DNA of 64,000 bases. It comes from Halichondria panicea. Lineage: Eukaryota; Porifera; Demospongiae; Suberitida; Halichondriidae. Below, piece by piece: positions 19,501 to 57,100 of this stretch. A program made the position numbers and the translations under genes. Positions within the stretch are counted from its first letter, which is position 1. Each line of letters begins with the position of its first letter. Where the stretch lies: positions 4,795,442 through 4,859,441 of the forward strand of contig NC_087392.1 of assembly GCF_963675165.1 (NCBI RefSeq). Reading direction: 5' to 3'. Under the pieces are notes generated by a model. The model had not been told where the DNA came from. It made no database searches and was given only the letters and a program-made list of their open reading frames with translations.

Positions 19501-22500
19501 TCTAGCCACTGCTGCTGGAGGAGAGGGAGACTTGGCCAGTGACAAACTCTCTCACCTACAAACTGTTGGCAGTGGTTTTGCATCTCTCATCTATGAGATG
19601 AAGGAGTCTGATGATTATCTGATGCTTAAGGACCGATGTAAATCACTTTGGAAAGCTCTGGTCAAAAACAGTAACTTACCAGAGCTATTGGTAAGTGTAG
19701 TATGCATGCCAAGGACTTTACCATGCACATTTCCCATTTAGATCAGCTGTAATAAGGACATAAAGTGGTACACGTCGGTAAAGGATACCCAGGGCTCTGT
19801 GGAGACTACCTCCTCCTATGGCCAGATGGCAAACATTCTCAAGTACGGCACATACAGAGTAGGCTTTAAGAAAAATGCTCGGACTGTTCATGATTTCATC
19901 TCAGTGATACTCACCCGCCAATACGAGGAACTAGTTAAATGGAACTACACTCTAGACGAGCTTCGAGACCTTGAGAGCAAGTTAGTGCTCATTTGTGGGA
20001 ACAATGCAAAGAACAGAGCGGAGGTCAACCACTACCTCAATGTGAGTATAGGTGACATAATTATGTGTAATGCTCCTGCATGTATTGATCAAACAATTTT
20101 TTCAGCTTCTGCACTGTGCCACCAGTATTGCAGAGCTCTACCTGGAGCTCCAGAAAGCTGGAGATGTCACATACTCCAATGCTACTTTTGAATTCAAATG
20201 TGTCAAAGGGTACGAGTTCAACTTGGAGGAAGCAAAACTAAGAGTGGCTACTCTACAGGACTACATCATCCACACCTTAGAACGGGATATGGTTACCTGG
20301 AAACAAATTATGGAAAGTGCTCGTGATAAGTACTATGAACTGAACTACTTTACGACGCTTCAATTGCTCCAACTAAGGAAGGAACTGGGCATACTCAGTC
20401 AAACTAGCACCAACCACAAAGTTGAATATAACATATTAATGCTGCTAAAGAGTGTATCCCCTCAGGTTTCTAGTAGGGTGGTAATAGACTCACTGCAAGC
20501 AGCCGCACAACCTGAGCCTATGGGCGGAGAGGGAGCCATTCCCGTAGCTGATACTGTTTCTGCCAATTCAGAGAACAAGGACTCACTGCAAGCAGCCGCA
20601 CAACCTGAGCCTATGGGTAGAGAGGAAACCATTCCCAAAGCTGATAAAGTTTCTGCCAATTCAGAGAACAAAGCAATCCAGCTTGATTGCACTTTACCTA
20701 TTGCTATTTCTGAACCAATACCTTCATTAATGCCTACATTGAGTTTTGAAGATCTAAACGAATCGCAGAAAAGTATTTACACAACGTTGATGGGATTTAA
20801 CTATTCTAAGGGCCACGTTCTAAGAGCTTTTCAAGAATGCCAGGATGTTGACTACTTTGAAATTGAGACTTGGTGTGATACCAATGAGGACCTATTTTAT
20901 GAAAGAGATGTGGATGAAGATCATATAACTACTGTAACAAAGGAAATATATAATCCAGTGGAGTCAGATGATGAAGCCACTGTGCCAGTGTGTGAACAAA
21001 GTGAGTGTAATGGAGCACAGTATATAATTATAGTGTATAGTAGTGACATTGTACCTTGTTGCCTTTTGACTAGTGCCATGCACAAGCTGTTTATTGGCCC
21101 GGTAGTAGATTATGGTCAAGGCCTTTACTCATAGCCATGTGAATAACTATTACATGCTGAGCATAAACACACACATTGCATGTGCCCATGGCCAATGGGT
21201 GCATGAAGTAGTGTTTTTATGGCGTGTTTATATGCTATTTCTTGAATGCATAATTATGCTGACCATTTTCTTTTGGGTGTACAGCTAATGTATTGCCAAA
21301 AAATCCTACTCAACTCGATGTAGGGCTCAAAATTCAGTCTGTAGTGAGACACTCAGTTGACTTGAGTCACCCTGGGGTAAAGGAGTTAGTGGAAGCAGGC
21401 TATAACTCCCAAGAGTGTGTTGAAGCTGTATATCAAAGTAGAGGGGATGTGGAGAAGGCTATGAAGCTGCTTGATGCCAGGGTGATGGAGAATAGTGCTC
21501 AGTCTGATGTGGCCATAAGTAGAGTGGAACCAACGCTAGATCTGTAGGTTGAGGTTTCTGTATACCGTATTCACCAAGAACATACTCTAATTGCATGCTA
21601 CACCACGTACAGCTGTATATATAGGTGGGATGGTCTTATTTTCGAAATCGGTTGTTTTGGCTCAAATTTATACTTCCACCCAGGTGTTCGCCTCGAAATT
21701 ACACCCATGCACTAAGATAACTAAGTTTGTCCTGAGGGGCTTTGTGGTGAAGACGTGCGACCAAAACCATACTGCCCATTTGTATTCATTATAAGGAGTA
21801 CATCAAATTCGAGAATTCCTATAACACGTATACTGATCTGCAAAGCTGCACCTAGCTGTTTCATTATAATTTTATGGACTTTGGCATCCTTTTTAACAAC
21901 GATCATGGTTAATCATTTTCCCCCATTCTAGCTGCATGCAAATGTAACAATTGTGCATGTGTGTATTCATGAGGCATCAGCACATGCGAAGCTTTTAGAT
22001 AGTGTGCAAAGCAGGGCATAGCCAGGATTTTGTGGAAGGGGGTGCTAATTGTAGTATCGTTACTTTAATTTAGCATTTTCATTATAGACTCGAATTTATT
22101 TTGAACAAGTTAATGAGCGGGCGTAATTTCGAGACAAACTTCCATTTTCGACTTAATTTTACCATTTGCATGTAGCTGCTTTGTTGTTATACATTACGTT
22201 TATGTTTTAGAGTAGCATTGTTCCTTTAGCTCTGAGGCTGTAGGGGACGGTATCACCGAAGCTCGAGATCCTGAAGCCTGTAGGAGCCATCTGGAACTTG
22301 ACCACCTGGGACGTGTGCTAAAGGCTATCAGCAAATGCTCTCCAGGTATAATTACATGCATGTTTATCAAAATTATACATTGAATGCACAGGTACTGTGA
22401 CAGTTCAAAGACCCTTCAGCCACTTTCTCAAGGCTGGGTTACCTAATCTTCTAGTCACAGCTCCTGGTACTGTTATATAGCTACATGTATTTATAGCCAA

Positions 22501-28500: not shown

Positions 28501-31500
28501 ATAGTCAGCTATAGTACTATTATAGTACTGTAGCTTCATTGCTATAAAGCTTTGGCGCCTCCACCAAGGCATCAGCACCCGCTTAATTTATGCTAAGGCG
28601 CGCCGCGACGCCACGGGTTATAGTAGTCGGTCCGTCTGTCTGTCTGTCTGTCTGCATATGTATTTTGAGTCTATACTTACCTGATGCCATAGCACTGTGT
28701 TTTTACTATGAATAGCCTCAACACAACAAGGTAGTAGTTAAATTTGGCAGATTTTAATTAAAGCTTCATTGTCGAATAAAAGTGAACAAAAGCTAAGAAG
28801 TTAAAACGCTCGAACCACCTGCACGATGTTGGCCTAGATGTACATGCGCTTTGATTCAAGTCTGTATAGCCTCACTAACCTCAAATTAAAGCCGAGGGTT
28901 TGTATTTCAGTGCTTTAGTTGTATGTATAGATCTATATACCCCAGGTGCATGGTACCTGCATGCGCATGTAGGGCCACTAAACAGGAACGCCACTAAACA
29001 AGAACAACCGGAAATGTAGTCATTAAATGGGCGCGGTTATTGCGAGGTCATTATTATACGCGTGGGCTAATTATCTAACTTAGAATCAGAGTAAACTCTT
29101 CCACAGGTTTGTGCGACATGGATGCATTCTTGGTGCAGCTGATCAATCAAGTAGCTAGGACTGTAGTGTAGCTGTACTAGCTACATAGAGCTTACTAGCT
29201 AGAAATGAATTTTGTTGTTACTTTAATTAACACATTACTAGTACTGGTACGTCTAGTTAGTTTTGGGAAGGAAGATGCTCCTCTACTATGGTTATATATG
29301 CATAATAAGTCACCTGGGTGCCTGGTTGAGTTGCACAGCCTGTTTCTTGGCTTCTAGGGGGTGTTCCTGTTTAGCGTCAACCCTCACACTAAACAAGAAC
29401 ACCTCACTAGGAGCCAGAGATACATGCTGTGCAGACGTCACAAGCACAGATTGCCCTACACCACCATTAGAGCACTTGCGAACTCTTAGCAGCCCTTAAA
29501 ACCAGCATCACTGGCTCCTAGTGGGGTGTTCCTGTTTAGTGTGAGGTGTGACGCTAAACAGGAACACCTCCCTAGGGCCAAAATACAGGCTGTGCAACTC
29601 GATCAGACACCCAGATGACTTATTATGTATATATAATCATAATATAATCATAGTAGAGGAGCATCTTCCTCCCCAAAACAAACTAGACATAACAGTAATG
29701 TCAAAGGATTTATAAATGATATTAAAGCATCAATAATCTAGCTAGTAAAGCTCTATGTAGCTAGTACAGCTACACTACACTAGTACAGTGACACAGAGAA
29801 GCTACTTGATCGGTCCAGTTGCACCAAGAATGCCTCCATGTCTCACAAACCTGTGTGGGAGAGTACAGCTCTATTCTCCAGTTCGATAATTAGCCCACGC
29901 TCTCAACAACAACCCCGCAATAACCACGCCCATTATTGGTTTCATTTCCGGTTGTTCTTGTTTAGTGTGTGTTCCTGTTTAGTGGCCCTACATGCGCATC
30001 AGTCATTACTATAATAGAATCTATACTCAATTCACAATTATGTTTTCTGGACCTACTAAACAGGTGTGACATCCCAGTGGTTATAATTGGTGAGACAGGC
30101 TGTGGCAAAACAAGGCTCATTCACTACATGTGTGATCTGGCGCGGGGAGGCTTGGAGCAGAGAAACATGCTGATTCTAAAAGTATATAGAGTATATGTAT
30201 CTATTTGTGAAGTTAAATGAATGTAATCATTAATTTTGATCGTAAGATGAAAATTCTCTGCTGTGCGCGTATAGATACATGGTGGAGTAACCAACAAACA
30301 CGTCACAAACTTTGTGAAAGACGCCGAGAGATTGGCACAGATCAACAAAGAAGTTAACCCCAATCTGAGCACGGTGGTCTTCTTTGATGAGGCAAACACC
30401 ACTGAGAGCGTTGGACTAATTAAGGAGATCATGTGTGATCGTAGAATGAATGGCCAACCAGTCTCCAAAGACCTCAAGTTCATAGCTGCCTGCAACCCAT
30501 ACAGAAAGTGAGTGATATGCATAAGTATACGACACCTATTACAAGTCACTGATGTGTATACGTCCTTTGACAGGCATTCGAAGGAGATGATCGAAAAACT
30601 GGAAAAAGCTGGCTTAGGGTTTAATGTGAGAGTTGGTGAAACTCAGCAGAAGCTAGGTGAGAAACAACAACTGTCTATATATATGTTGTGGAACTTATGC
30701 TCTTATCTCACAACCACTATGCACCACCACTCAGGTAAAGTCCCCCTCCGTCAGTTCGTATATCGAGTGCTGGACCTGCCTCCCAGTATGAGACCTCTAG
30801 TGTATGATTTCGGTCAGCTTAACACAGGCACCGAACTAGACTATACTAGTCAGATCGTCAAGGATCATGTGAGAGAATAGCCTATAATTATTCATGCAGA
30901 GGTTGTCAGTATGGTCTCTCTGTATAGGTACTAAGACACCCAAAACTGAGGACAGAGAGCCCTGCCATCATTCCAGCTATATCAGCAGTGCTAGCTGCAT
31001 CGCAATTATTCATGAGAGAAATAAAGGTAAATTATGAGCACTTTAAACGTAATATTCTTTATTGTCAGTATGTCTCCCAGAATGAGTGCAGTTTTGTAAG
31101 TCTGAGAGATGTTGAAAGAGCTATGATTGTGTTTGAGTTTTTCTACAAGAAAATGGACAGTGTGTTTGCTCCACTCATAGACAAGAAAGCGCAGGAGGAC
31201 TACAATGAGCGTTGTGCAGTAAGAGAGAACGCTGAGGTATAAAATAATATCGATCAATTACTAATGCCATGTATAATTATATCCTATATTTACCTATAAA
31301 GATGATTTATATATGTTGTGCAAAATAAGACATCTCTTTTTTTAGGATGATGACCTAGCAGCCCTTCCCCCTCGCCCTAAACAGCTTGACAACATCACAA
31401 GAGCAGTCATTCTCTGTCTAAGTGTTTGTTACCATGCCAGGCTACAGGACAGGGCATGTTATGAAGAGAAGATCTCAAGATGTTTCAACTCTCCCCTACA

Positions 31501-34500
31501 GCTACCAGAAGGGGCACAACAGCTCAGGAATGAGATCAAATTGTAAAAATCTTCTATATAGATCTATTTATGTCCTAAGATTGTAGACCAGGTGATTTTT
31601 GTGGGGTAAAAAATTCGTTATAGAAAACCTAGGCGCGGTTTACCGAAACACATTGATGGAAGCAAACAAAACTTGTGCTCACAAGTTAAACGAATTTTTT
31701 TACCCCATATATGTATATATATATATATATGTGTAGTTGGTATATAAGATTGTAGACCAGGTGATTTTCGTGGGGTAAAAAATTCGTTATAGAAAACCTA
31801 GGCGCGGTTTACCGAAACACATTGATGAAGCAAACAAAACTTGTGCTCACAAGTTAAATAAATTTTTACCCCACAAAAATTACCCACTATACGGTGCATG
31901 GTTGGTGTGCATACATATATGGACACTCACTGATTCAAGCACTCTTATTATTATAAGCTTACGGGTGTGCCTTGCAGGTGTGAGGAAGGTTTACTGGACA
32001 ACATGGTCCTTGGTCCCAACATTGCTAAGAATGCTGCCCTGAGGGAGAACGTGTTCATGATGGCTATTTGTATTGAGCTGAGGATACCTCTCTTCTTGGT
32101 AGGCAAGCCAGGTAATTCCAAGTCTTTGGCCAAATCTATTGTTCAAGACTCCATGCATGGACGAGAATCGCAGTCACCAGTGCTAAGGGAGTTCAAGAAA
32201 GTGAGTATAATATCTTTGCACATTCCACTTTATTGTGTATGTCTGACCTTTGCAGGTACATATATTCTCGTTTCAATGCACTCAGCTGTGTACTCCAGAG
32301 AGTATAATAGAGGTGTTTAAGCAGGCTGAGCGATTCCAAGCCAAGCAGGACATAAAACAGTATGTGTCAGTGGTTGTGTTGGACAATATAGGACTAGCTG
32401 AGGACTCCCCCTCCCTTCCCCTCAAGGCCCTACACCCACTGCTGGAAGACGGGACAGAGGGATCGGGTAAAGATCATCAACAGCAGGTTGGGATTGGCAT
32501 GGTAGCGACTAAACAAAGGATATAATGTTAAATCGTATGTAATGCTAAGTCGTATCATTTATAAATTCTGTTATCATCAGATTGTAGAGCGTGAAAAGAG
32601 AGTGGCCTTCATTGGCATATCTAACTGGGCGCTGGACCCTGCTAAGATGAACCGTGGTGTTATGGTAACCAGGGGAGACCCTGGGAAGGATGACCTGGTA
32701 ATGAGTGCTGAAAGCATCTGCTCTAACAAAGAGAGAGATCCAGTGAAGGATCAACTAAAACATTTTTTTGACCCTCTATCTAGAGCGTACCTCGAGATTT
32801 GTAGTGTCTGTGAGAAAGGTGGAAGACAGTTGTTTGGTCTACGAGACTTTTACAGGTACTTGCATGCTGTATACTATACAATTGTATGAGATACTACACC
32901 TACAACAGTGGCGTTTCAAATTTGTTGAGTCCCGCCCACGCACAGGAAGCCATGCCCACGTTTTACTGCGCATTACAGGGAACAATACTGATTTTACAAA
33001 AACAATCACAAAGATATCAATTGTACCAGTACCATGCGCATTTATATCAGGTATTTTTCACAGTCTATCACTATGTGTAGAAGACATATCTTGTCAGTCG
33101 ATTTTTCTGTGTGATCGTACTGCTGTCTTTATTCCATGCACTGAAAGACTTCTCTGCTGAGCAGCTATAGTGAGAGCACATGCAATGATACTCTATCACC
33201 AGAACATCTGCATCAAAACCATTGCAGGTCCTCTGTTCCTGCTGGTAATGGTTGTTGAGTCACTTTAGAATAAAATTATAGAGCATGCTGTCGAAGTACA
33301 CATGCCCAGAAAACTTAGATATCTGCTTGAAGGTGTGGTATCCATGCAATCAGTATAAAAGCTCTTGCTAGCTAGCTAGCTATAGCTTAGCCTCCTTCAC
33401 AAGGCCTAGCTATAGCTCTAATGCAGTGCAGGCTCAGGCTCATGCAGCTCCCAGCTATCCAGTAATTAATGTTGAGTATGTGTGGTAGTTTTCACATATG
33501 CCACGTTACGGCCACAAAACTAGAAGGAATTGTCAAATTCACGGAGCTATCGAGATCCAACTAGAAAAACATTTGCAGTGTGAACAATTGCTAGGATTGG
33601 CCAGGGGAACCACCAAAAAGCGTAGAAACAAGAAATCAGACGAGAGCATAACTCCAATCCGTTACAACGTGAATCACATGTACTGGTAGTTTTCCATGTT
33701 TTCCCGGCCAATATACCACGCAATTTTATGTAAAACCTACTGATTTTACTAATAATAGCGTAACAGCAACTGAGCAAAAACAGAACTGACATTAATCAAA
33801 GAGGCCCAAATTAAAATAATAGGAGCAAAGCCCCTAGGTGGTGTTTCAGTACAAAGATGAGGCCAAAACCACAATTCAAAGTGTGAACAAAGACTCTTAT
33901 GATGCAATACGCTATAATTAAGAATGGGGATGAGTGTAAATTGTGATTAATTATGCCTCAGTGCGCATGCGCAGACGAGGTATATACGGTTGTGTGTCTG
34001 TGTGTGTGCATGTGTGTGTGTGTGTGCGTGTGTGTGTGTGTGTGTGCGTGTGTGCGTGTGTGTGTAGACTATTTCAGCTGCTCAGGGATCAATGAAGTGC
34101 AAGTAAGAGTTTCTATAGGCTTCTGGTCATGTTTTCTTGGCTTGGTATTTGTGGATTTGCAAAGTAAAGCTTAGTTTTCGAGTTATGCCTAGTTTTACTT
34201 ACTTGGAATGCCATTGCAGACTTTTCAGAAGAGTCCGTAGCAAAACTTGTTCACCGAGTGTTGCTTCTCTACTTAGTAGTTAGCTCTGCACTAGAACGCT
34301 AGCTATTGGTAGCTGCAAGAGTGAGAAGAGAGCTGCAAGGCTCTGCTGACTTGCAGCCATTAATTTTACACTTAAACTTTTCAGGGGCGTAGGGAGGGGC
34401 AGGGCTTTGGGGGCTGGAGCCCCCTCTTCCTCTGCAAAAACCACACTAAGAGCCCCACCTTCTCTGATGATTGTTTTCAGCCTGGGAATTTACTGGTATA

Positions 34501-39158: not shown

Positions 39159-42100
39159 CTTTACTGCATGCATTCTTCTACGGCTATACGCTTGAGACAT
39201 AATAACATTGCAACAAAATTAAAAGGTTATAGCTGTTAGTTACGTCATTGGAGACCACGCAAACGAAAGCATGAACGACAAGTCATCAGTTGCATGCAAA
39301 TAATGTTATATATCTTTGATTTCAGCAAGTTCCTTAGCTTCTTGAACTAGAAATAGGGTCCATACAGAAAATACATGAACAATACATGAACATACAATCT
39401 GCTATAAATATTAATTTGAATGAACCTCCGAAAAGAGGACAAAAGCTCTACTCCCAAAGTGTCCTTCACTGATTCGGAGGATTCACTGCATTATTTTGTA
39501 GGTATCACAATTTTATAAAGTAAATATATACTGTTGTGTCATGCCTGACATTTTAGTGTAGTTCCTGATATAAAAGAGAAATTGTTGCCCAGTGAGTAGG
39601 CAGATCAAAGCAATCCAGTGCTCTGTATATGGCATGTTGCATCACTACCATAGCAACCATAATATAAGGCATAATGCACTGGGATTATATGCACTTGCAC
39701 TGTGTGTAATGCAGTAGATTTTGAGAAATAAATCTACTTTTGGGACTTACTCCCACCGAATAACTCATTTGGTCCCTTTTATAGGCTACTACCTAATGCA
39801 TGCACTAGTTGTGGGAAGAAAACCTAATGAAATTCAGCAATTCAATTCAAAACACATGTCTTTTATTACAATTTATAGACCAATCAGAAGAGTTTAACGT
39901 CATTGGGCAACAAGTTAGTTATTGCAGGCGCCCTCGTGCAACACGTCATCCAGTTCAATATAGTGGCATGTTTCACTCGTGCTGGGCAATACCTAATACA
40001 TATCAGCTTATAAAAAACGTGGATTTGATTACTAAATCTAACCATATACACTTCATACTTCCAACAGGACAAGTCGACTGTCTGATCCAACGGTTATTTT
40101 CTTCATTTTTCATTTAGCTATATTTATCAAACATAAACAATAATTACAGAGCGATAATTATGTATACGCAAGCCCTAGTTATCATAGATATTGCACAAAC
40201 AAGATTGTAAAGTGTGTGGATTTGGCTCGTTCGTAATTACATAATACAGAAATTATATATTATACAGCGATAGTAATTCATCTACATGTATCCTGCATGA
40301 ATGGCTCACCTCTAATTCCTGACGGTTTGCAATAATTATGTGTTATTATAGTGACTATCGAGGCAGTAGCTTCAGCGAGGCCCATGCATTCATTGGCTAC
40401 CAGAAGGACACACCTGCAGCAGTGGTTTTCCAGGCTACTAAGATATTGAGGAGACTTCAACAGAACCATCGAATGGATAGCAAAGTAAAACACTTGTTGG
40501 TGAGGACTGAACACCACCTGTTAAAGGCTGGTATCATTACACAAGACCTTGCTGACCTCTCTGAAGACTCGTGTCAGTGGACTGATTCAGTGAGCCACTT
40601 TGTGTCGATCAATTTTACTGTACACATTAATATATGTATAAGGTTATTTCCCTAAGCCATGTCTAACTGCAGTAAACAGTGGACAGAGTATTTACAAGTT
40701 GTTTCTATATGCATTCAGGTTATCAAACTAAGCAAGTTCCTGCTTGTCCAAACAGCTGCTGACGCTGCAATAATTGGTTTCCTAAGGTCAAAATATCCAC
40801 CTGAAGAAGTTGATTACATTATGAACTGGTACTTCGAGCACCAGCAACACTGCTCAATAGGGGAGTTTTTACAGTACGAGCTCGAGTGCAGTCACCATTG
40901 TGAGATATTCATGCAGGTATAATATCAGGGCTTGTCTGTAAAGCACTTCCGTATGTATATGCCTCTGTTTATTCCTAAAGGTCACCACACACTGCCCACT
41001 GATGACAAAGGAAGAGTTGGCCATTGTTACTGAATCTATGGGCGTGGACTTTGCAGAATTTGATCTGCTTGATTTTGATTCTGAGCTGGATTTCTCAAAC
41101 AAAATAGGGTATATAATTATGACTTAAATGTGCCATTCATCTAATCTTACATGGTTGTACTGTGGTTTTGCTTGCAGACCCAAGTTCCTCCGTGACGAAG
41201 ATAATGCAAAGCCCTTCTTAGTGATTATACAATGTGACTCGGGGCATTTGAATTCTGATCTCATTGCCTGTGCCAGATTTCGAGTCTGTGAAGAAGCAAT
41301 ACATGCAAAGATGAAGAATGAAATCCATGGTCGAGATGATATCACGCACGTACTGCTTATTATTCGTTTGCCACCACAAGAGGTCAAGTCACAGTTTGTT
41401 GGTTTCCAAGGGGACCCCTGGATTTCAGTGCATATTGGTGACCTGAGGCCAACTTCTGAGGCCACAGTGATACCAGAGCAGGCAGTCGATGCATTTATCA
41501 GTGAGCTGTTTATTAGACATCGAGAGAGTATACTGCTCCATCCTCAGCATCGCCGACTACACAGTTGTGTGCAAGCTGCAGTATCTTTGCTCAAGGACTC
41601 TCAGAGAGACAGAGCAGTGCTAAGAATACAGAAACTCATGGCACTGATTCCAAAAGCACCTCCTGAGCAATTAGGTAAAGTAATAATTTCCGAGCGGGAA
41701 GCATTAAAATTTCAATTTCACCCTCTTATGCAGATGAGGCTCCATTTTTTGCTGTTTTGATCCAATTAATTCACTCGGCTCTACAACAAAGGAAAGAACT
41801 CAGAAGAGGAGAACAAGAATGGCTGCTCAATGAGGCTATGAGTGGTCAGATACTACGTAATGGTGGGACATTCAGGAATATGCTGGCTCGTTGTATCGAT
41901 GTGGTCATCACCCCCTACTTTGCTAAGATCATTGCCCATGCTGATCAGAACTCTAACCTTGACCTCCTTGATCCCAAAAACCTAGATTCCCCTGTCTCAA
42001 GGGTCTGGCTTGCCATGTTTAACTTAACTGGAGAGGGGATGGACTGTTCCACACAGGCAGAGGGCAAGACAATCGTCAAGACTGACTTCCACTGCCAGTT

Positions 42101-45100
42101 TCCCTTTTCCTGGATGATAAGAGAGGTGGTCACTGCTCAGGGAATAAATGTGCGAGGTATGCACACTTCAATTATTATTGTGGGCAGTATATAATAACAG
42201 TATGCATTTCATCACGCTCTCTGTTAGTGATTTGTCATTGTAATAGGTGCCAGAAATCGTGGGTTTGCTCTGCAAACCATTTGTGAGACTCTGAGTCTTA
42301 CTAGAGTGGGTTTAATCTTGGACAGTGTCAAAGAGGTCCATATTGACCAGTTATACAGACTTTACCTTCATGACTTTGTCCGATACGTGCACAATAGCAG
42401 CCTCAAGAATCACCTTACTATAACGGAATATCAAGTGATTTATGAAACGTTTTGTAGGCCCTTGAAATTTAAATATTGCTCCTCACATGCAGTTAATTAT
42501 GGAAGCATTAGATGCTATGACGCACCGTAATGAATTTTGCTCTGTGGATGGTCATGAGTCACTATCTCGTAAGATAGTGGCTCTTCATCTGATTCATGGT
42601 CAGTGGTCCACTGAGGTGATGCAGTTTAGCCAGCTGGTTCTGAACAGACCAGGGATCTTACATTCACTCTCTATAATGAACCCATTGGCCAGAGCAGGAA
42701 AAGAAGTATGTGATCACGGTGTCTTAAAACAAATTTCTCTTTTTGATTCAGGTCTCCTATAATGTCAATAAATTACTGTAGGCGTTTACTCTTCACTTGT
42801 GTGCTGTACAAAGAGTGTTAGAGTCAGACCACGAAGATGGTGACCCCACAAGCCCATCCTGGGCTGGCCTCAATCCTCCATTGCACAATCTCTCCACTAG
42901 GAAGCAGGATGAGGTCACTCGAAACCTGCAGCGCTGGTTGAACAATGTTCGTTTGTCTCAGAATGTTATTGAAACTATCCTGAGATCAAATAGTGTGAAT
43001 GATGCTACAATAACGTCCAGGTAAGTGATTTTCATGGTCCTCTATAAAATTATACATACTGATCAGGCTGACTTGGCAAAGGATCAGAGCTTTGCAGATA
43101 TTTGCTGAGACCGTGTATCTGCCTCATTCCAGAGTGAAGGGAGTTCCCTTCATCACTAAAAAACTTGAATTTGTAAGCAATGCCCCTATAATTATACCTT
43201 TTCTGTGCATATATATACTAAACTCAATACAGACATTAAAAAGGCATTCTGACTTTTTAAAGAAAGACACACTACTTGCTGTCAAGCAGTTTTTGAAGAC
43301 CTTTTTTGATTTGAAGCAGCTTGAAGCTGACAAAGGCACAAAGGATAAAATAAAAGACAGTTGCAACCGTTTTTTTATTGAGGTTGTCTCCAGTCTGTGT
43401 TTCGGTGGTAGGGAGATCCCGGAGTCAGAGCTGATTGAGCTGCTGTTGGATAATGTCCTGCAGGACAGAGAAACTAGTGCATTGTCACCCTATAAAAAGC
43501 AGGACCAAACTCCCGTCATCAGATCATTCCTACTGCAGCTTCTACTGGAGCACGAGTGAGTATTCAGCTGTATATACATACATTGTCTTAACATGAATTT
43601 TGTGTGCATGTGCATGGACAGACCTAAACAGGTACGGCAATACATGGACAACTACTACCAACGATCCAGTGTGGTTAGCCGTGGCCATGGCATGGACCAG
43701 GATCTCTGTCTGCTTTCTATTCAGTGCTTTGAAGTATGTCTGTGCAGATGTATATGTATTTTATAGGTGTTGGATAAGTGAGCATCCCCTCCTTTACACA
43801 ATCATGCACACATACTTAATTAGGATGCACTACATAAACGGATGAGTATCCTCTCTCCTGATGACAAAGCTAACAAAGTCATGCAGCTCCTGGAGAGTAG
43901 CCATTTAGCACTACAGGAACATTTGGGGACACCGACAGTTCGTCTTAAATACCTTGAGGCAGTGGCAGGCATTCGTTTTGCCCTTTCTATTCTAGCTGAG
44001 CAGTTAAAGAGTAACACTGTCCGCTACTCTCTCCTCAAAGTGGCTAAAAAGCTATGTATAGACACCAGAGTGAACATAATAGACCCCACAGGAAAATTAG
44101 ACACTACAGGACCTGTGCTCTATCTCATAAAGCTCATAGTGAGGCAGTTTGGTTTCCCTTGTCTTCGGGCTGTGAGTCGGGTCCATTCCTGGCTCGTCCC
44201 TGAGGGCTTAAAGAGGGCTGACAATGTGAGTTTTCCTTTGGCTATATATATAATTATGAGATCCATCTCTATACATGTACAGGAGGAGAGACCCATCGAC
44301 CCTTTTGTGCTGTATGAACGAGACTATCAGGATATGCGGATCGCTGTCAACACTGCATTGCGTACAAAAAAAACAACAGACCTTACTACCTGTGTGGAGG
44401 TAAGTATACCTGTAGTATATACATGCACTCTAAAACATGCTTCTGTGCCACATTATTTAACTTGGCGCTTGCAGCTCACTAATATCGCAGCACTATACAC
44501 ATTTACCGTATCGATAACCCTATATCCCGGGAACCACAAAACAGGAAATGAAACATAATTATCACATCACATAATTACAATCATCATGAATGTGTGATAC
44601 AATTAAGTTATGCAATACTTATTACCTTTGTATGCTCTGCACAGGGTGGAGCTAAGTTTTGTCTATTGGCCTTCGTCCTGTACCAAAAGAGCACTCTCTC
44701 ACTAGCCACCACAGTACCAACAGAGCCAATACAACAGGAGGTATGCTGATATTATAATCCTATGCATGTCAAATCTCTACTGCAAATCAGGAACACAAAG
44801 TACTGAAAGACTTCCTACGAGACAGCCCAAGCATCTCAACAGACTTGCTACATGTTCTGCGTTTGCTCCTGGCTAATCGCCAGAGTGGTACTCTGGTTCA
44901 GATGGTTGCCTCACCCTATCAAGCAGGCCTACATAGGACCCTCACTGGCCTTGTAGTGCACACGGTCACTGTGTTACTGAGCAGGGCTAACACTGAACTA
45001 CTGCTGCCATTTATTAACATGATTAACAACCCCGCTGCTCTGGAGGTCAGTCCATGACTGTTAAAACTATGCTGACCCCACACGCTCTGTTCACAGGATG

Positions 45101-48100
45101 CGTATCTGCCCACCATGCAAGACAACCTGGTCCATGAAGTGAAAAAAGCACACGAAGGCAGTGCAAATGAAACATCCAAGTTCTACAGTAAGCATGCGCA
45201 CATGCCCATGTGTTCAATTGCCTAAAACATTATTATATATAGAATGTCCAAATGGTCACCTGTATCTCATCGGAGACGTGAGTTTCATATTGGTACTAGT
45301 ATACCGCCTGTAGAAACCACAGTAAAATCCTATTATATCAGCTACAGCTTAGTGCGAACACCATAGAGATCAAATGGAAACTATGCTAGCACGTACATGC
45401 CATAGATTAGGATCTAGAAAACAGCTCAGTGATTCTATAAGCCTCTAGCCACCAATGCTATCTTTGCAAACGAAATCTTAATTTGTTCTTGAGTTAAAGC
45501 TCGAGCTACATGGATTATGACTCATCAATAATTTATATATATGCTTGTTACATGGAAATTACTCTTCATTTGCTTTAAATATCCAAAAATCCACGGCTCC
45601 CCTGAATATGAGTTATATGGCTTATAATGCATGCTCGTGGCGCACATCATACGCAGCCGCCGCATTCCTTTTGATATGCCCACGCAAGCCTCAATACAAT
45701 AAGCATATTGTCTTGTTTCAAAGTTTACATTGTGAATGGCATCATGCATTTTTTTTTAAGTATGGTAAGCCTTGGGTACGGAAAACCTGTCCTGAGTGTT
45801 ATGCAGCCATTGGAGGCACTCACCATACACTGTTGGCTGACAACTCGGAAGCACAAGTGTAAGTGTATTGTAATTTTCAAAATATCAAGACTTATTGCTC
45901 ATTGTGCAGATCAAAAGATTGTACTGTATTTACTGTTGTATTTACTGTTGTAAATTAGTAAAACCAGTAGGTTTTACATAGGATTGGCAGTGGGTTTGCC
46001 GTGTTTAGCAATATTTTGACTCATGTTCAAACTGTTCTATCTCTGCAGGGAAAGGCCACATCAAGAACCTGAATAGACAGATAGTTTATTTTAGCCTTTT
46101 CTCTCTTTGTATCTCTCATTTCATAATCCATGAACGTTTTAAATGTATGAATATTGTCATTTTAAAAATTGCACTATTTCGACGTTTCACCGCTCTTTGT
46201 CTGACTAAGTAGATCTAAGTAAGTAAGTGAGTGAGTAAGTTTCTTGCCCAGCATTTACTCCAAGTACAGCCCTCTCCAAGACATTCTGCACAGGGTTTCC
46301 AAACGACTACAACCTGGATTACAAAGCGCTTCTTCAGATTTGCGATTGCTTCCACGAGGCAGATGACCTCTCAGTCTCTATTTCTCTTACCTAGACAATT
46401 CCGCCATCTTTAATGACTCTTTGTGGCCAAATAATAGATAGGCGTGGCTAAGAAACCGTGCGCCTAAAATCAGTGCAGTGCTTTTCCAGAGCCTGGAGGT
46501 GTTGCTTTTCTTCACACTGTTCAGCTCTAGCTCCCTTTCTCTGACAAGCATGCTATATGCACTGGCTATATATATCATGCTCTTAAAATGGCTGTCATTT
46601 AATACTGATTCACAAATTCAACATATCAAGCAATAATTATTACTAGTCTATAATTATTAGTCCAGAGATATTCGAGAAGATATCTGATTAGTCCTGTCTT
46701 CTCTTCTTGAACTTCTGTACTGCCTCTTGACGTTCCACTTGTATTGAAAAAGAAAGGGAATCCGACTAGAAAAACATTTGCAATGTGAAAAATTGCTAGG
46801 ATTGGCCAGGGGAACCACAAAAAAGCGTGGAAACAAGAAATCCGACGAGAGCATAACTCCAATCCGTTACAGTGTCATGAACATGTACAATACATAGTAT
46901 ATAGACTGTGTTCCAGATCCATCTCTACCAGCTTCCATCCACCACATCATTCCATGCAGGTCACCAGTACGGTCCGTGCATGTTACTACGCATGGATGGA
47001 CTGTGTGTACTTGTGCTCAACACTGCATGTATTAGGAACATCAATTCATCACAAATCATCATGATTATATGCCCGCACATTCCAAAATGGATGTATAATA
47101 AAAGGATTGGTCATCACCCCCCACCAGTAAAAATTGCGTATTTATATTATAATTATTGGCCGGGAAAACAACCAGTACATGTGATTGACATTGTAACGGA
47201 GTGGAGTTATGCTCTCGTCGGATTTCTTGTTTCCACGCTTTTTTGTGGTTCCCCTGGCCAATCCTAGCAATTTTTCACATTGCAAATGTTTTTCTAGTCG
47301 GATACAGTACATGCCTGGGTAATTAATGTACCTAGATGATATTGATATTATCCACGCAGGATGCATACCAATTCAACCTAGCACCATACACCCACCACCC
47401 AGGATAGTAATTAGCTTGCGCATTGGTTTTATAAGAAACTGGAGTGCATCGATGTGTGGCGAATCCCAAAATCCTGCAATATGATTGGTCCATTGTAGGT
47501 AGTGATCCTTGAAATGATTACACAATCAGTAATAAGTAGGTTATAACATCATGCCCTCGTGCTGTACTGCTAATACAACACTCTTGCCTGCACAGTAAAA
47601 ACAGATTCGTTATAATAACATAAAACATCTCAAATAAAATGCATCATTTGAAATTTAATGTAGAAATGACAGAAATTTATGTCATTTCTACATTAAATTT
47701 CAAATGATGCATTTTATTTGAGATGTTTTATGTTATTATAACGAATCTGTTTTTACTGTGTGAGTAATATATAACCTACACTTACGTCATGGCATCTCCA
47801 AATGAGTTGTCCACTACATAAGACGTTTGTAAGTCACCAATTTCATGCAGTCATGTAATCTGAGTTAAGTATAAGTTATTGGGGCGAGCCCTGAGGCTCG
47901 TCCCATAGTAGCGAGTACTGCAGGAGAGCTCAGCGACCTAGATATCCGTCTATCCGTCTGTCTTTTTATATTCGTGTGTTTGTGTGTGTCACACGGTCAG
48001 TTCAAGCTTTTTAGCGTGACGATCGCTGCATTTTCAACGATCAGTTGTATTCAATACATGAGCAAGACATTAATATTTCTACTGGATGAAACTGATACAG

Positions 48101-51100
48101 CTCAAAAACTAAGGCAATGAAGCAATGGCGTTTCCTACGCCATATCGAAGACACTATCTGCTGACAATATCTGCTGACAACGCTAAGGGAAGTTTGACAA
48201 CAATTAAGTAGGAGTAATGTGACAGAAGTTCGTCTGTCGTCAAAAGGTTCTAATAGAGAATTACTACCGTTAGGAAACAGCAAGTCGAACAAGAGATTCC
48301 TGCTCACTACAACTTCTTCGCTAAGACTAGGCTCGCCCCACACAATATATGCTTCCAGCATTCCCCTAGTTATGCCAAGGTATGCGCAAATGAGGTATAC
48401 GGTAGTGTGTTTGTGTGTGTCTGTCTGTCTGCATGTCTATCTGTTGTAGACTGCTATACGGCTGCTTCGGGATAGCAAGTGCAAGTAAGAGCTTCGATAG
48501 GCTTCTAGTCATGTTTTCTTGGATTTCAGTTTGTGGATTTGCAAAATAATGCTTCGTTGTCGAGGTATAATTATGCTTAGTTTTGCTCACTCGGAATGCC
48601 ATTGCAGCCTTTTCAGAATATTCCGTAGCATAACTTGTCCATGGAGTGTTGTTAGCTCTGCACTAGAACGCTATTGGTAGCAGTAGCTGCAAGAGTGAGA
48701 AAAGAGCTAGCTGCAAAGTTATTGGGTGCCGTTAGTGTCAAAATCCAAAACTGGATGCTGTAAATCAAAAGGAGTCGATGTTTACTAAGAGTCAATGTTA
48801 TAAAGGTCAATGACAACATTGACTAAACTTCATGAAATAATAATTTTGACACAAACGGCACCCCATAATACAATGTACAAAGCTGCACTGTTCACAGCAG
48901 TACTTTGGCTATCGTTTTAGCAACAATCATGATTTATCATTTCCCACTATTTTGCAGCATTCACTTAATGCATTCATTGTGCATGTGTGTATTTAATAGC
49001 AGACCTCAGCTATAGCCTCAGCGGTGCTTTCATTACTCATGCAAGAGGATGTACAGACGAGTTGTATTAGCAGTATACAGCACGAGGGCATGACGTAATA
49101 AACCTACTTATTGCTGAGATTGTGTAATAATTTCAAGGATCATTACCTTATGGACCAATCAGATTGCGGAATTCTACCAGACTGCATTGGGATTCGCCAA
49201 GCGTCAATGCACTCCAGTTTCTTAAAGCTAATAGGGTGGTAGTCTCTCAGGTCTAGGCGGTGCTTTTAGAAAGAACGTCTGCATGGTGAAGTTCCAAGAG
49301 CGCATGCATAAAAGATTACAGTACGGGCAGAATCCAAAACCACTACTATAAATAGAACAATTCTTGAAATCGCTCACTGCTGCATGTGCATGGAATTTAA
49401 TCCCACGTGACCATAGTTCTATTTATAGTAGTGGTTTTGGATTCTTCCCAGTACTGTAGCAGACGGAGGTTACACGCTCTCTCTCTTTTATGCGCTCTTG
49501 TCAAGTTCCTATGAAATCATAGATACAAGAGGAAGAGGATCGGAAACGAGGTCACGTGAACTCAATTAGCACAGACTATCCTCGTTAGACAGAAGTATGG
49601 TGGGCGTGGCTTACACTAATAGCGTACACATAGACCACAAAATGGCACAAAAATAATTATTATTGCTGTATCTTGAAATATTACATGTATGCACATGGTG
49701 GTAGCCACAAAGCCATCTTTTCCTTTTATTTCATGTAACTACGGATCAACGGTATAGGCTTTTACTTTTTAAAAACTAGCCGATGCAGTGCAGCAGAAGA
49801 CAAAGTGTTAGTGTACAGTTTTCAAGTCCTATACAGTAAGTGAGTTACTACCCACTAATAAATGAGTAAAAAGCCTGAACAAGAGGTTTGCATGGCTCTA
49901 ATCTCACAGGATATCATAAAACAATGATTGATGCATGCAGTGATGCTCGCAGTGATGCTCTTAAATCAACTTAGCTTACCTTGGTAGTTGAAGGATCGCT
50001 CCAAACATGCCTTCTTTGCCTTTGCATAAAACGCGGATCAATTGTGAGGCTTACCGTATAGGATTGATAGCACACGTGATCTCGTTTCCAATCCTCTTCC
50101 TCTTATATCTATAATTATGGTGAAACTTGTGTAGAACCCCAGGAATTTCTTGGACTGGTAATTAACCGCACTGGATGTGGACGCCCACGATCAGCCATGA
50201 ATAAATCCCACTACAGAAATAGGAACACTTAAATAATTATGGCCTGCACGTCCTGTGCGGCTAATTACCGGTCCAATGGACTTCCACACGAGTTTCACAT
50301 AGGAACTTGACCAAAAGTTCTTTTCTAAAGCGCTGCCTAGACCCGAGACTAATACGATGGTGGGTGGTGCTTTAGGTTGAATTGGTCTCAATTATATCAC
50401 CCAGGTATATTGACGGCGACCACATTCTGGGTGAGATATTATAATACAACATTATAATGAGCAATAACATGTGCTATAGTACATTGTTGCTGTTGCAGTA
50501 ACGACATGACCAAGACTGGCCATGACCTTGGTTCCCCGCAACAACGCCCTGTCAATCTAAAAAGAGAGAGGGAACTATCCGCCACTGCTGTGGGCATCAT
50601 AAGGGCACTCATGCACGTTTCCTTCCTCTGGGCGGCCTGCCATAACCAATATCAGCTGGTGGACATTGCCAGAGTTACCCGGAGTGTGGTACCGCTTCAG
50701 GACCTGGCAGAGTTTTTTTGGCTCCATCTAGAGAAGGATTTGGAGTGTATGCAGAATAGCACTGGGAGGGCAGTGGATGAATGTTTCATGATCCTGCATC
50801 TGGTTCTGAAGCAAATACTAACATCTGACTACGTACCTATGTGTGAGTTGTGCAAAAACTGGAGTGTGTGCACTCAATTTATTGTGTAAAGTTGCAGCTC
50901 CGATGTCTGCCAATGTCAACCAGCTACAGTCTAAGGATGCCCGTAAAGAGTGGGAAAGACTATTCAATACTTGTTATATTGAACCGATGCTTAGTCAACT
51001 GCCGACATGTATGGATACAGCGTGGGATCTAGTAGCTAACGATGATCAACAAGGTAAGACTATACCGTATGTATAGCTGGTTATTTTTGCAGATTGCTCA

Positions 51101-54100
51101 AACTAAACATTTCACGAATGTTATTATCGTAAATAGTGGTTCAAATAACGGCCCTAGAGAGGTATTTCAACGAGGTGTGAGGTCAATCCTCGAAAACCTA
51201 AGCTATACGGTATCATATAATATTGCTCAAAAGAGGTACGACAGGCTCGGTGCAGCTCTATATAGTCTTTGATTGCATGAGTTATCCACCCACGCCCTGC
51301 CCACGTCGTATGTTATTGCTGAGCTCTACCGCGGCTGTCGGACATCCTTTGAGTTGTACTATACTGTCGTAAATAGAGTCAATACGGTAGACCCTCGCTA
51401 TTCCAGCTCTCTGAAGTACGGCCACCTTAATATACCGGCCATTTGGCTTGGCACATATTGCTAGCTAGATGCATGTTTACTGCACGAACTTCACCCTAAA
51501 GTACGACCACTCGCTATTCTATATACTGCATAGCCAGTGCTGCCTACAACAAAACTAGGTTTTTTTATATTACGGCTGGATATGACATGTGGTTTGGCAG
51601 ATAAAACTGGATTTCACTAGAGCAGAATCATTCATTGTCCTCGAGACAAGAACCGCGAAATAATTATTAGTCATTAGATTCGAGGTAAGGTCGTTTTTAA
51701 GCCGCGGCTATTTCCTGAAATACAGCCACCTCGCTATTCCGGCCAAGCTGCACTGTCCCAAGGAGGGTGACCGGATTAACGAGAGTCTACTGCATGTACA
51801 GTGTACACCCACAGTATGTGGTCAATATAAGAAAACTAATATTAATCGTGGCCCATGCAGGACACAATCTGATTGACATAAAGCACCACCCACCACCTAT
51901 TAGCTTACATAAGAAAACTGTAGTATGCATTGATGCGTGGCAAATCTTTCCCATGCACTTAATTAGGGATTCACCTTCAATTGATTTGTATACATATAGC
52001 TAGTTATATGCATCATGCATGTGAACCTCCATAAAACGGACACCATTGGGGAACAGCCTTTTGGAGAGGTGGTCTTCTTTGGGAGGTTTCGATTGCCAGC
52101 TATATGTATGTTCTATATGAGTCATTTTTTGCTTGCAAATGAATATTGAGGCTTTGCTAACTGCTTCTTTAGCTCATACAAGCTTTGAAAAGGCTGTAGG
52201 GACAAGCTACAGCTAGGTTTTGCAAAATAATGCTATCTCAGCAATGCTAATTCTGGGTGTAGCACCCCCTTCTTCAAAATCCTGGCTACGCCTCTGTGTT
52301 GTGCTCTTTAGCAAGCTCCATCACTTTCCAATATTGTAAACTGTTATGGAAGACGACAGTTAACCCTCCTATAGACTGTTATAGTATAGCCAGTGAAAAC
52401 CAAGCTATATATATTGCATGAGTCGGGATCCCACTGAAATCGCTGATCCATACGTTTGTACCATCACTGTGTGGTTTTCACATAAGTGCGTGACTATTGT
52501 GGCAACTATCAGGAAAAAACACATGAAAAACGCACACGCACTCTGCGTGAAAACTACACATCATTTTTTACAGTTCATCCTTTCACTATTAATAGCTAAA
52601 TTTTATGCCGTGGGATTGCTGCTGTTTTGGCTGCTTGAAGATCTGCACTTTTCATGCAAATCTGCATGCTTTAAACTTGGATTGTTATTACTAAGGCACA
52701 CGTGATGCATGTCCTACCTCCTCTGGTCCTCTGGTAGGAAATAGTGAAAAGAGTAGGAAATGGTCGACCATGCTTGTTGCTAAAAATGACGCCTTTATAC
52801 GATGGGCTGGCAGCAACGTGAAATCTCGTACAGTCCAATTTTAAATCAGTAGAAATCAACAGAAATTTGAGCTCTGTTCTCACTCTTGCAGCTAGAATAG
52901 TTAAGTTATCAACAAATGTTGCTACACATGAGTCTAAAGAGTCTGCAATAGCTATAGCCTTCAAAGTAAGCAAACCCATAGCCATGCATAAATCGAGATG
53001 AAGTATATTAGTTTTGCAAATATCTACTACTGGTGATTGCAATCCAAGAAATTACTAGAAGCATAGAAACTCACTGAGCAGCGATAACATGCACAGTCTA
53101 GACAGACACACTATATACCGTATACTTTGTGCATGCGCAACCGCGGCATGATTATGTTCTACTATATATAATTCCTTGTGTTTTGACATCATTGTTTTAT
53201 TGTTTTCGTTGGCCAACACATGTGCAAAAGTCAACTTTACCGGGCCCTCTTCCCCAACCAATGATTAGCGAAAGTGGGCATTGGGATGAGGCTTATAACT
53301 TTACCCGTGCATTGTATCTATATCCTATAGTGCAAGACAGTCTGTTTTACCTGGCCTTTGAGAAGGTCAAAGTGGATGAGAAGAATATGGACGTTCATCT
53401 CTGGAGCTACAGACCACAGATCAACCTGCAGCACCTCGAAAGTACTTTAAAGACTGGAAGCAAATGTAAAATCCTGGAAGCATTCCTTACAGCTGTGAGT
53501 CTGCATACAGTAACTGTCACAGTGTGTGAATGTGACATTATTATCTGTATAATAATATAGGAGCCAAGTCTACGTGCTACTCAATACCTGCCAGACATTG
53601 TAAAACTTCAACAGTTTATGTTTGAGTCCTTTGACAGACGCCTAGACAAGAGCAAAGCAGAGACCATGACCATCAGACAATTCCTGAGGGATGTGAAGGA
53701 GACTAGGAATGGTATAGCAAATAATTATAACATGTAAAACCATGGATATATATAATAATTATATACATGTATACAACCGGTAGAACTACTATCCATGGTG
53801 AAACAAGAGCATGTGCATGCTGGTTATGAATTATTACAGAACACATCCAAAAGGAGTGCCAGGAAATGATCAAGAGTTTGAAGAAAGCATGGGCTCTTGT
53901 GAGACATAAGCTCAAGAATCACAGTAAGTGTATGCCGTTCATGCACTGAATTTCACCCCACCCCTCTTTAGACCGACTACCTGTGGAGGAAGACTACCTG
54001 CTTCCAGAGATCACGGAAGATACTAGCATGGTCTACCTGATCCCAACTACCATGAGGGAGGGACGTTGCACCACAGCACTAGTCGACTATCTCGTTCTCA

Positions 54101-57100
54101 CACACAATTCCTTCATTGAGTGGTGCAGAGGGATCGTAAATCAAGGGGCGGAATCTACCTCCGCAGTGTGGAGGGAGCATAAGGTTCTCATCACCCACGT
54201 CCATTCCTGCCACCTGCTAGAGTATGAGCAGCATTTACAGTCCATTATCCTCTCTCACTGTCATTACTCTCTCACTGTGGGAAGGGGTCAGAACATCAAG
54301 TACAACCTCCCCGCTCTAGAGAAACATATCCTTAACAGGTTCATCTATGGCAAGCCAATTATTCTCTTAGACATCCCCCATGTGGCGTATTGTAAGGACA
54401 TCTACACAGTGGAAACTTTCCGGGAGATACGGCGGAAGGTTAAACCTCAGGTACTCAAAAAAATAAGTTTGCCCCTCTATTTCAGGGGCGAATCTAGAAG
54501 GTAGATTGCAGAGGGTGCTCAAGTACCCCCCTGACCTTGAAGAATTTAATCCATTATCTGCATGTGTGTCTCACTCATTAACTGATTGAAGACTGAAGTA
54601 ATTCCTATAGACTTTGTACAAGGGTACAAAGCTGTGCTATAAAAGTGTAATTGCAGTAATTACTATAGTACTACTGCAGCATATGCAGACTACATTGTAT
54701 ATAGCAGGGACATAGCCACCAGGATTTTGGGTACGGGGGTGCTAATTATTGATGAAAGAGGGCGCAAAGCGCCCGATTTTTTTAGTTGGCCGTTGCCAAA
54801 TTTTTTATTATAAAGAAACCTCCTTCAGCTACGAGTTTATAGATTTAAGCCAGAATAGCTCACAGTTTAGAGACTGAATCCTTTTCCTTGCCTACTAGCT
54901 ATAGCTATTAAACTCCTACACAAAATTTTAAAAAGAGATAATCAGACTTTGTGTTTTGTACCTGACTCAGGCTGGATGGTGCTCGAGCACACCTAGCACC
55001 CCCTCCCTGTATATAGTGCAGTAGATGATAGACATTTACAATTTACTAACCACACCTATTTCACTCGCGTGCAACCGGAAATGACGCAACAAGGGGGCGT
55101 GTTCACACACAAAATTGCGCGTTAACACGCATTTCATTTTCCGCATCAGCACCTACCTTTTCTAGGTCCGCCCCTGAATAATTTTTGTTTTGTCTACGTG
55201 AATTATATGTTATTGTCTCCCTTCAGGAACCCCTACTCCAACGTGTCCAGCAAGATATAATAACAGAGCTGCAAAATCCCGAGAAACTAAGAGAATCCCT
55301 TGATGTTGTAGAAGTTGTCCTTGGGCTACTTTCTTCAGGAGGAGGTAGTCACACCGTGATGTTGGAAAAATACATATCTACTAGGCGAATGGGCAAAAAA
55401 CCTTTCAGTGCTAAGGTGATTATGGATATATATTAGTGGCTGTGCTAGAAATGTATGTAGTGCATACATTTCTTCAGTGGAGTACTACGCCACTGAAGAA
55501 ATGTATGCGCTACATACATTTCTCCAGCCCTATTAAGTAGAGATTAACTTATCAATGCACTATATGTAGAGAGGCGTACTTTTTTGCATTCAAAGCCCCC
55601 CATTGAGAAATTGCTTCCTACGCCACTGCGCTATACATGCGTGTAACTAAATGCGAGCGGCTATCATATGACATAATTCTGTCGCACATGCACTTATTCT
55701 GCATTTAGTCAAGGCCTGCACGTATATCGGTAACTTCTAAATAAATAATAGTTAGACACCGAGGTGTCTATGGGATTTAGAAGACCAAAGGCACTGATTT
55801 AGTATCCCGAGCATAGCGAGGACTGCAAGTGGCTGAGGGCTTCTAAATCACATGCATGGACACCGACAAAACAGTGTCTAACTCATTTAGAACTAGTGAG
55901 CATGTGCAAACCTTGCCCTTGAGGCTTAACTACAATACAATTACTTGACAACGTAATACTAGGTATACTAATTAAGTAAAGTGCAGGTATACTAAGTCCC
56001 ATGGTATACCTGCTCTGAGGCACTTTTCCCATGTACTTCCCATATAGATCTTATCTACTAGTGTCTAATACTAATTTGTGCTTGAAAATTAGATTTTTCT
56101 GCGCTTGATGACAATTAAAAAAATCTTCCAAAAGTCTGGTAGAGCTGATGATGAAGACATCATCATTATTAACCCGAGGCACGTGGGCAGCCACGGATTA
56201 TAGTAGTCGTTTGGTTTATTTGTCTGTTTGTTTGTCCGGATGTATCGGGGTCGAGAAGGAGGTTGGTCACGATTGTTAATTAATCTTCTATTGTAACCTC
56301 CAATTCCGTGGAAACTTGAGAGAAAGTAGCTATCCTAGCTAAGCCAAAAGGCTGCAAACGATCATAGCCTCTTATACTAGTAGGAAATGATGCTAACAAT
56401 ACTCAGTGATTCTAGAAAGTGAGTAGCATAGTCATACTCGAAGTAATAAGCCAGAAACTAAGATTAGTCACAAACTTCCAGTTGTTGCTGCACTTTCCTT
56501 GTTTCTTTTACTCCTGTCTTAATATAGCAGGTGTAGCAACGATAGTTTTACTACTACGACTCATAGACTAACAGGAGACGTAATACAAGGCAGATAAACG
56601 CTCAAGAATACCAAAATAAGATAAAAATGCTGACTCAGCGGGTTGGGTAGGTTGGGGTTCTTTCAATGGCTTCTGTGCATTTACTGTTGGAATTGGAGGT
56701 TACAAAGAAAATTAGAAGATTAATTAACAATCGTGACCAATCTCCTCTGTATCGGGGTAATAACAGAAACTTTATGCAGCTGCTATAAGCTTATACAGCA
56801 AAAGTCAACCCAGAACAAGAATTATTTATTTTTTCGTTATACAAGTGACACTATTGACCCTGGCATTCCTCCTCTGATTTATGCTTTCATGTAATTATTT
56901 CTAGCAGTATATCGTAGCATAGATGTTAGGAGAGAGGGATTGGAAACGGAAGTGGGCCTCGGAAAACATCCGCGCCTCGCTTTCTTGTCTTCTTTTCTTG
57001 CCTTAAATGAGGAAAACTAATGTGCATTGGTACATCGTAATAGTAAGGAGAATGTACAGAGCTAGTGGTATTGGATACTTGTTTCACAGTAGATATAAAA

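Follow-up and report, generated by a model that had tools for sequence, protein, structure and literature searches.

A RING-less RNF213-like gene of the sponge Halichondria panicea, putatively a retained pseudo-E3 with replaced RZ nucleophile and AAA4 Walker B glutamate

The window analysed here, a stretch of 64,000 nucleotides of Halichondria panicea (NCBI RefSeq assembly GCF_963675165.1, contig NC_087392.1, positions 4,795,442 to 4,859,441 of the forward strand), carries an RNF213-like gene in whose E3 module no RING finger can be recognised. In this gene the nucleophilic Cys of the RZ finger is replaced by Tyr and the catalytic Glu of the AAA4 Walker B motif by Asn, and among the four close copies of the gene in the genome the window copy alone carries both replacements. 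Judged from its sequence, the gene is probably a retained pseudo-E3 paralog, with a rough probability of 0.6. As no RING finger was found, it is classed as an RNF213-like paralog, not as RNF213 proper.

The C-terminal 24 exons (41178-60000) were set by hand, and the exon numbers 50 to 52 follow an earlier note on this DNA. These three exons and their introns are arranged as follows:

42782 to 43020, plus strand: exon 50, E3-back region, with AG/GT sites and an open frame, conserved in three paralogs
43021 to 43066, plus strand: intron of 46 bases after exon 50, without a RING pattern
43067 to 43172, plus strand: exon 51, encoding LTWQRIRALQIFAETVYLPHSRVKGVPFITKKLEF, with zero Cys
43173 to 43232, plus strand: intron of 60 bases after exon 51, without a RING pattern
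43233 to 43555, plus strand: exon 52, from TLKRHSDFLKK to CNRFFIEVVSSLCF, the block that lies 3' of the RING in vertebrates; phmmer against RNF213 chains, E 7e-07

The earlier note had ended exon 50 at 43020, described exon 51 as free of Cys and begun exon 52 at TLKRHSDFLKK, and all of this is borne out by the translation and the splice sites: a GT follows 43020, every site at these junctions is AG/GT, and the frame is open throughout. The intron sizes that it gave are also correct, and where it had seen no CxxC/CxH in them, the six-frame regex likewise found no RING pattern. Over 38000-61000 of the window this regex, which an exon-split RING would escape, returned no full RING pattern and seven half-patterns, every one of them starting beyond 46000. 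The same regex found no full RING in 10-kb stretches of the paralogs; half-patterns numbered two in C15a, two in C17 and none in C15b (the copies are located below), all in other exons or introns.

The RING profile search that had been proposed was made by running the spliced E3 region of the window copy (1064 aa) against Pfam. No RING family appeared up to E 10, and the sole family found was ZnF_RZ (PF20173; 62.3 bits, cut-off 27). Pfam likewise gave no RING family for the spliced E3-back of all four copies; weak matches there to Dark_CARD, DEK_C and Bcl-2 (best E 0.0087, none in the window copy) were rejected as chance. The spliced E3 region matches RNF213 chains in three blocks (phmmer E 7.4e-57), and the central claim of the earlier note, an RNF213-like gene without a RING, is thus upheld. 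The second and third blocks are separated by about 140 residues in the window protein and by about 192 in mouse RNF213. In the mouse, the E3-RING occupies residues 3940-3999, as an insertion between the two final E3-back helices (Ahel et al. 2020, PMC7311170). The deficit of about 52 residues between these blocks therefore fits a missing RING. In a four-copy profile across the RING site the flanks alone align, and sequence leaves the exact junction unplaced.

The genome (131 Mb, 39 contigs) contains four close RNF213-like loci: the window copy on C16, two copies on C15 (C15a and C15b), and one on C17 (C17:3199001-3209000). A search with exon 52 gave four matches, and a search with the AAA4 exon gave the same four plus a weak fifth. 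The C15a and C15b proteins are 97.5% identical with a dS of 0.066, and their loci lie 82-84 kb apart (C15:1643001-1663500 and C15:1700001-1745000); the pair either arose by a recent duplication or reflects the assembly. Counterparts of the 24 window exons, required by script to have AG/GT sites, the same phase and no stop, were located in C15a (24/24), C15b (23/24, the stretch ending inside the last) and C17 (24/24). The counterpart of the first exon is doubtful at its 3' end: 41178-41674 of the window is a single exon, where the three paralogs are interrupted by a further intron and contain additional acidic sequence.

Absence of the RING is a trait of this local family, found in all four copies. 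An assembly gap, the cause that the earlier note had named as able to overturn its claim, was ruled out, because the introns are complete and the three paralogs agree. A distant fifth locus of the RNF213 family lies on the minus strand of C12 (C12:356501-386500), and its AAA core matches RNF213 chains with E 1.4e-31. The next region tried at this locus had no PDB chain match up to E 1, and the RING regex had no match on the gene's strand in the 30 kb. With its E3 part unmatched, the locus stands outside the RING-less count.

The RZ finger of the window copy is encoded in two parts:

45243 to 45277, plus strand: first part, CPNGHLYLIGD, with two zinc ligands kept
45761 to 45858, plus strand: second part, YGKPWVRKTCPECYAAIGGTHHT..., with Tyr for the nucleophile Cys; the zinc Cys pair and the dyad His are kept

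The codon of the nucleophile, the first after the RZ intron, is TAT (Tyr, 45761-45763) in the window and TGT (Cys) in all three paralogs; the vertebrate RNF213 of the mouse also has Cys at this position. All four zinc ligands align with those of mouse RNF213. Counted along the alignment, the Tyr corresponds to mouse 4462 (human C4516) and the later His to mouse 4483. This count assumes that the 5161-residue mouse chain is natively numbered, which is supported by F, W and Y of the E2-docking patch then landing on 5093, 5097 and 5106. The Cys/His catalytic dyad is accordingly incomplete in the window copy, with Tyr for Cys and the His retained, a replacement absent from the earlier note. The C15 paralogs have no RING and keep the whole dyad. 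In the C17 copy, the RZ Cys is kept, Glu stands at the dyad His, and CRESGC, with two extra residues, takes the place of the zinc CxxC. A motif scan of 45278-50498 found no second RZ exon, and an alternative downstream RZ exon was thereby rejected. The intron that follows the RZ exon contains two inverted repeats, at 46760-47303 (129 bases, 96% complementary) and at 47591-47760 of the window (85 bases, 99% complementary), which are perhaps remnants of mobile elements.

Sixteen other RZ-finger places were fetched from the same genome as a control. Fifteen of them are clustered at C12:1.15-2.22 Mb and the sixteenth lies on C17; several stand in long open reading frames, and these genes are putatively of the ZNFX1 type. 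Like the window gene they have an RZ finger, and the zinc ligands are the same in most of them, but unlike it they mostly keep the nucleophile Cys (14 of 16, the other two having Arg and Phe). Loss of the RZ Cys is therefore not unique to the window gene.

Motifs of the dynein-like core, in which AAA3 and AAA4 were inspected, and a UBA-domain stretch lie farther upstream:

21326 to 21517, plus strand: UBA-domain stretch (PF00627, 24.0 bits, cut-off 22.4), upstream of the AAA core, with an aligned stretch in C15a
30089 to 30112, plus strand: AAA3 Walker A, GETGCGKT, intact
30371 to 30403, plus strand: AAA3 Walker B, TVVFFDEANTT, intact
32099 to 32125, plus strand: AAA4 Walker A, VGKPGNSKS, with the Lys kept; VGKPGSSKS in the paralogs
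32370 to 32408, plus strand: AAA4 Walker B, VVVLDNIGLAEDS, with Asn for the catalytic Glu

The AAA4 exon matches RNF213 chains with a phmmer E of 1e-23. Both AAA3 Walker motifs and the Lys of the AAA4 Walker A are intact in all four copies. In the AAA4 Walker B, the window has AAT (32385-32387), the three paralogs have GAA and read VVVLDEVGLAEDS, and the vertebrate chain has DE. By count, the Asn stands at mouse E2806 and, assuming a 40-residue tag on 8S24, at human E2845. A single sequencing error is an unlikely cause, since GAA to AAT requires two base changes.

The E3 scaffold and CTD are homologous to those of RNF213 (CTD against RNF213 chains, phmmer E 2.1e-33), and all 24 C-terminal exons have AG/GT sites and an open frame to the stop. 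The last of them are:

50499 to 60000, plus strand: nine E3-core/CTD exons, open to the stop TAA at 59998-60000

In pairwise comparisons of some 1630 codons from the E3/CTD half, dN/dS of the window copy was 0.162 to C15a, 0.162 to C15b and 0.186 to C17, against 0.223 between C15a and C17. Removal of the doubtful first exon left these values at 0.162, 0.161, 0.186 and 0.228, respectively. The E3/CTD half of the window copy is thus shown to be under purifying selection, and with 24 open exons the gene is no obvious pseudogene. These ratios average over time, dS between the window and its paralogs is 1.1-1.3, near saturation, and the AAA half was not counted, so that recent decay would be missed. 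In the CTD, the E2-docking patch is not securely aligned to the mouse: Phe stands at W5097, Tyr at Y5106, and F5093 falls inside an unaligned insert. This patch (F5093, W5097, Y5106) is reported to dock the E2, and W5097A to abolish the activity of mouse RNF213.

Could both replacements be drift in a copy that is decaying toward a pseudogene? Of 195 positions on which C15a, C17 and the vertebrate chain agree, the window copy has another residue at 21 (RZ segment 12/61, CTD 5/90, AAA4 exon 4/44), while in the reciprocal count C15a differs at only 4 of 178. The window E3 region also scores lower against mouse RNF213 (196 bits) than that of C15a (253 bits, with a query that includes the doubtful first exon), and the second RZ exon is among the most diverged, as it is also between C15a and C17 (pN 0.21, pS 0.16). 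Given such divergence, to find two of the ten inspected functional residues changed is no statistical excess; it is the roles of these two residues, not any enrichment, that argue for a pseudo-E3. All this agrees with decay; against it stand the open exons with their AG/GT sites, the dN/dS of 0.16-0.19, and a CTD in which 85 of 90 conserved positions are kept. Decay is regarded as unlikely, and it is the most credible of the alternatives to a retained pseudo-E3.

Less probable still is the possibility implied by the earlier note, a RING-less ligase that remains active by using its RZ finger for ubiquitylation. The RING is largely dispensable in mammals (PMC7311170, PMC11549300), and the retained zinc ligands and dyad His, together with the RZ profile match of 62.3 bits, are in keeping with such an enzyme. 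The C15 copies fit it fully. In the window copy, however, the nucleophile is Tyr, the motif scan of 45278-50498 showed no second RZ exon, and in the mouse, where C4462 was identified as the active-site Cys by XL-MS and mutation, either mutation of this residue or deletion of the RZ finger leads to complete loss of activity (PMC12075652). Thus the RING-less half of that idea holds, and its reliance on the RZ finger is not supported for the window copy. The two C15 paralogs are the better example of the natural separation of RING and RZ modules that it implied. An mRNA that differs from the genome, with UAU edited to UGU (Cys), or an assembly that is wrong at both sites, is very improbable. A-to-I editing produces changes of the TAT to TGT kind, and window and paralogs are one base apart at the RZ codon. 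But the RNA fold around 45762 is ordinary (z 0.36) and gives editing no support, A-to-I editing could not turn AAT into a Glu codon, and the Walker B change requires two base changes. Least likely of all is a RING in an unrecognised exon or one too degenerate for the profiles. A degenerate RING could slip past both the regex and Pfam, and the junction is unalignable, but introns of 46 and 60 bases are too short to hold one, and a hidden exon was rejected on the six-frame regex, the Pfam search of the window E3 region up to E 10 and the Pfam search of the four E3-backs.

If the gene is a retained pseudo-E3, vertebrate biochemistry suggests how its product may behave. An RZ finger with Tyr would be unable to form a ubiquitin thioester. 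AAA4 would bind ATP and hydrolyse it poorly, and might thus be biased toward the ATP-bound state; in the mouse, E2806Q disrupts hydrolysis and leaves E3 activity unaffected, and the RNF213 ligase is activated by ATP binding (PMC12075652). The CTD may still dock an E2, without ubiquitin passing to the RZ finger. The protein could then act by structure, speculatively by partnering, competing with or regulating the intact C15 paralogs without catalysis of its own. ATP hydrolysis is reported as essential for RNF213 coats (PMC11549300), which makes an independent coat-forming role less likely than a partner role. Stable human WB4 cells were also not recoverable (PMC12075652); together with the need for hydrolysis, this means that a change in Walker B may be no more than a deleterious one, a point against the pseudo-E3 reading. 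More tentatively, and with rather low confidence, the window protein might be a doubly switched-off RNF213 (RING-less, thioester-dead and AAA4-hydrolysis-dead) whose sole role is that of a structural partner: it would dock E2~Ub and assemble together with the active paralogs. In the C17 copy it is the Cys of the dyad that is retained and the His that is replaced, by Glu, so that the chemistry may be divided among copies that function jointly.

RNF213 combines two unrelated ligase modules, and a natural RING-less family means that its scaffold can persist without the RING. The C15 copies are putative natural candidates for an RZ-only form. Moreover, a paralog that is under purifying selection and has no RZ nucleophile would make a role of RNF213 that needs no ubiquitin transfer testable. 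In the titles and abstract openings of the open-licence literature, a sponge RNF213, a natural RING-less RNF213 and an RNF213 pseudoenzyme were not found; several papers on bivalves and on a sea anemone mention RNF213. Known forms of RNF213 include engineered ones with the RING deleted or the RZ finger mutated. As far as those titles and abstract openings go, the natural RING-less family and the natural copy with both catalytic changes are new.

Vertebrate RNF213 (mysterin; mouse 6TAX, human 8S24) shares with the window gene the order of AAA3/AAA4 motifs, E3 scaffold, RZ finger and CTD. The window copy differs in its lack of a RING, its Tyr at the RZ nucleophile, its Asn in the AAA4 Walker B and its UBA domain upstream of the AAA core. 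To our knowledge, human RNF213 has no UBA domain. The laboratory mutants of RNF213 offer a second comparison. Deletion of the RING left bacterial ubiquitylation unaffected and partly impaired ubiquitylation of Toxoplasma vacuoles, and with human C4516S three targets were not ubiquitylated and the vacuoles were still coated; according to the same report, no bona fide RING substrate of RNF213 is known (PMC11549300). The window copy differs from these mutants in having Tyr where the human mutant has Ser, Asn and not Gln at the Walker B, and a diverged background. In other respects it resembles a natural combination of the single changes made in the laboratory: RING deletion, mutation of C4462 and E2806Q in the mouse, and C4516S in the human protein.
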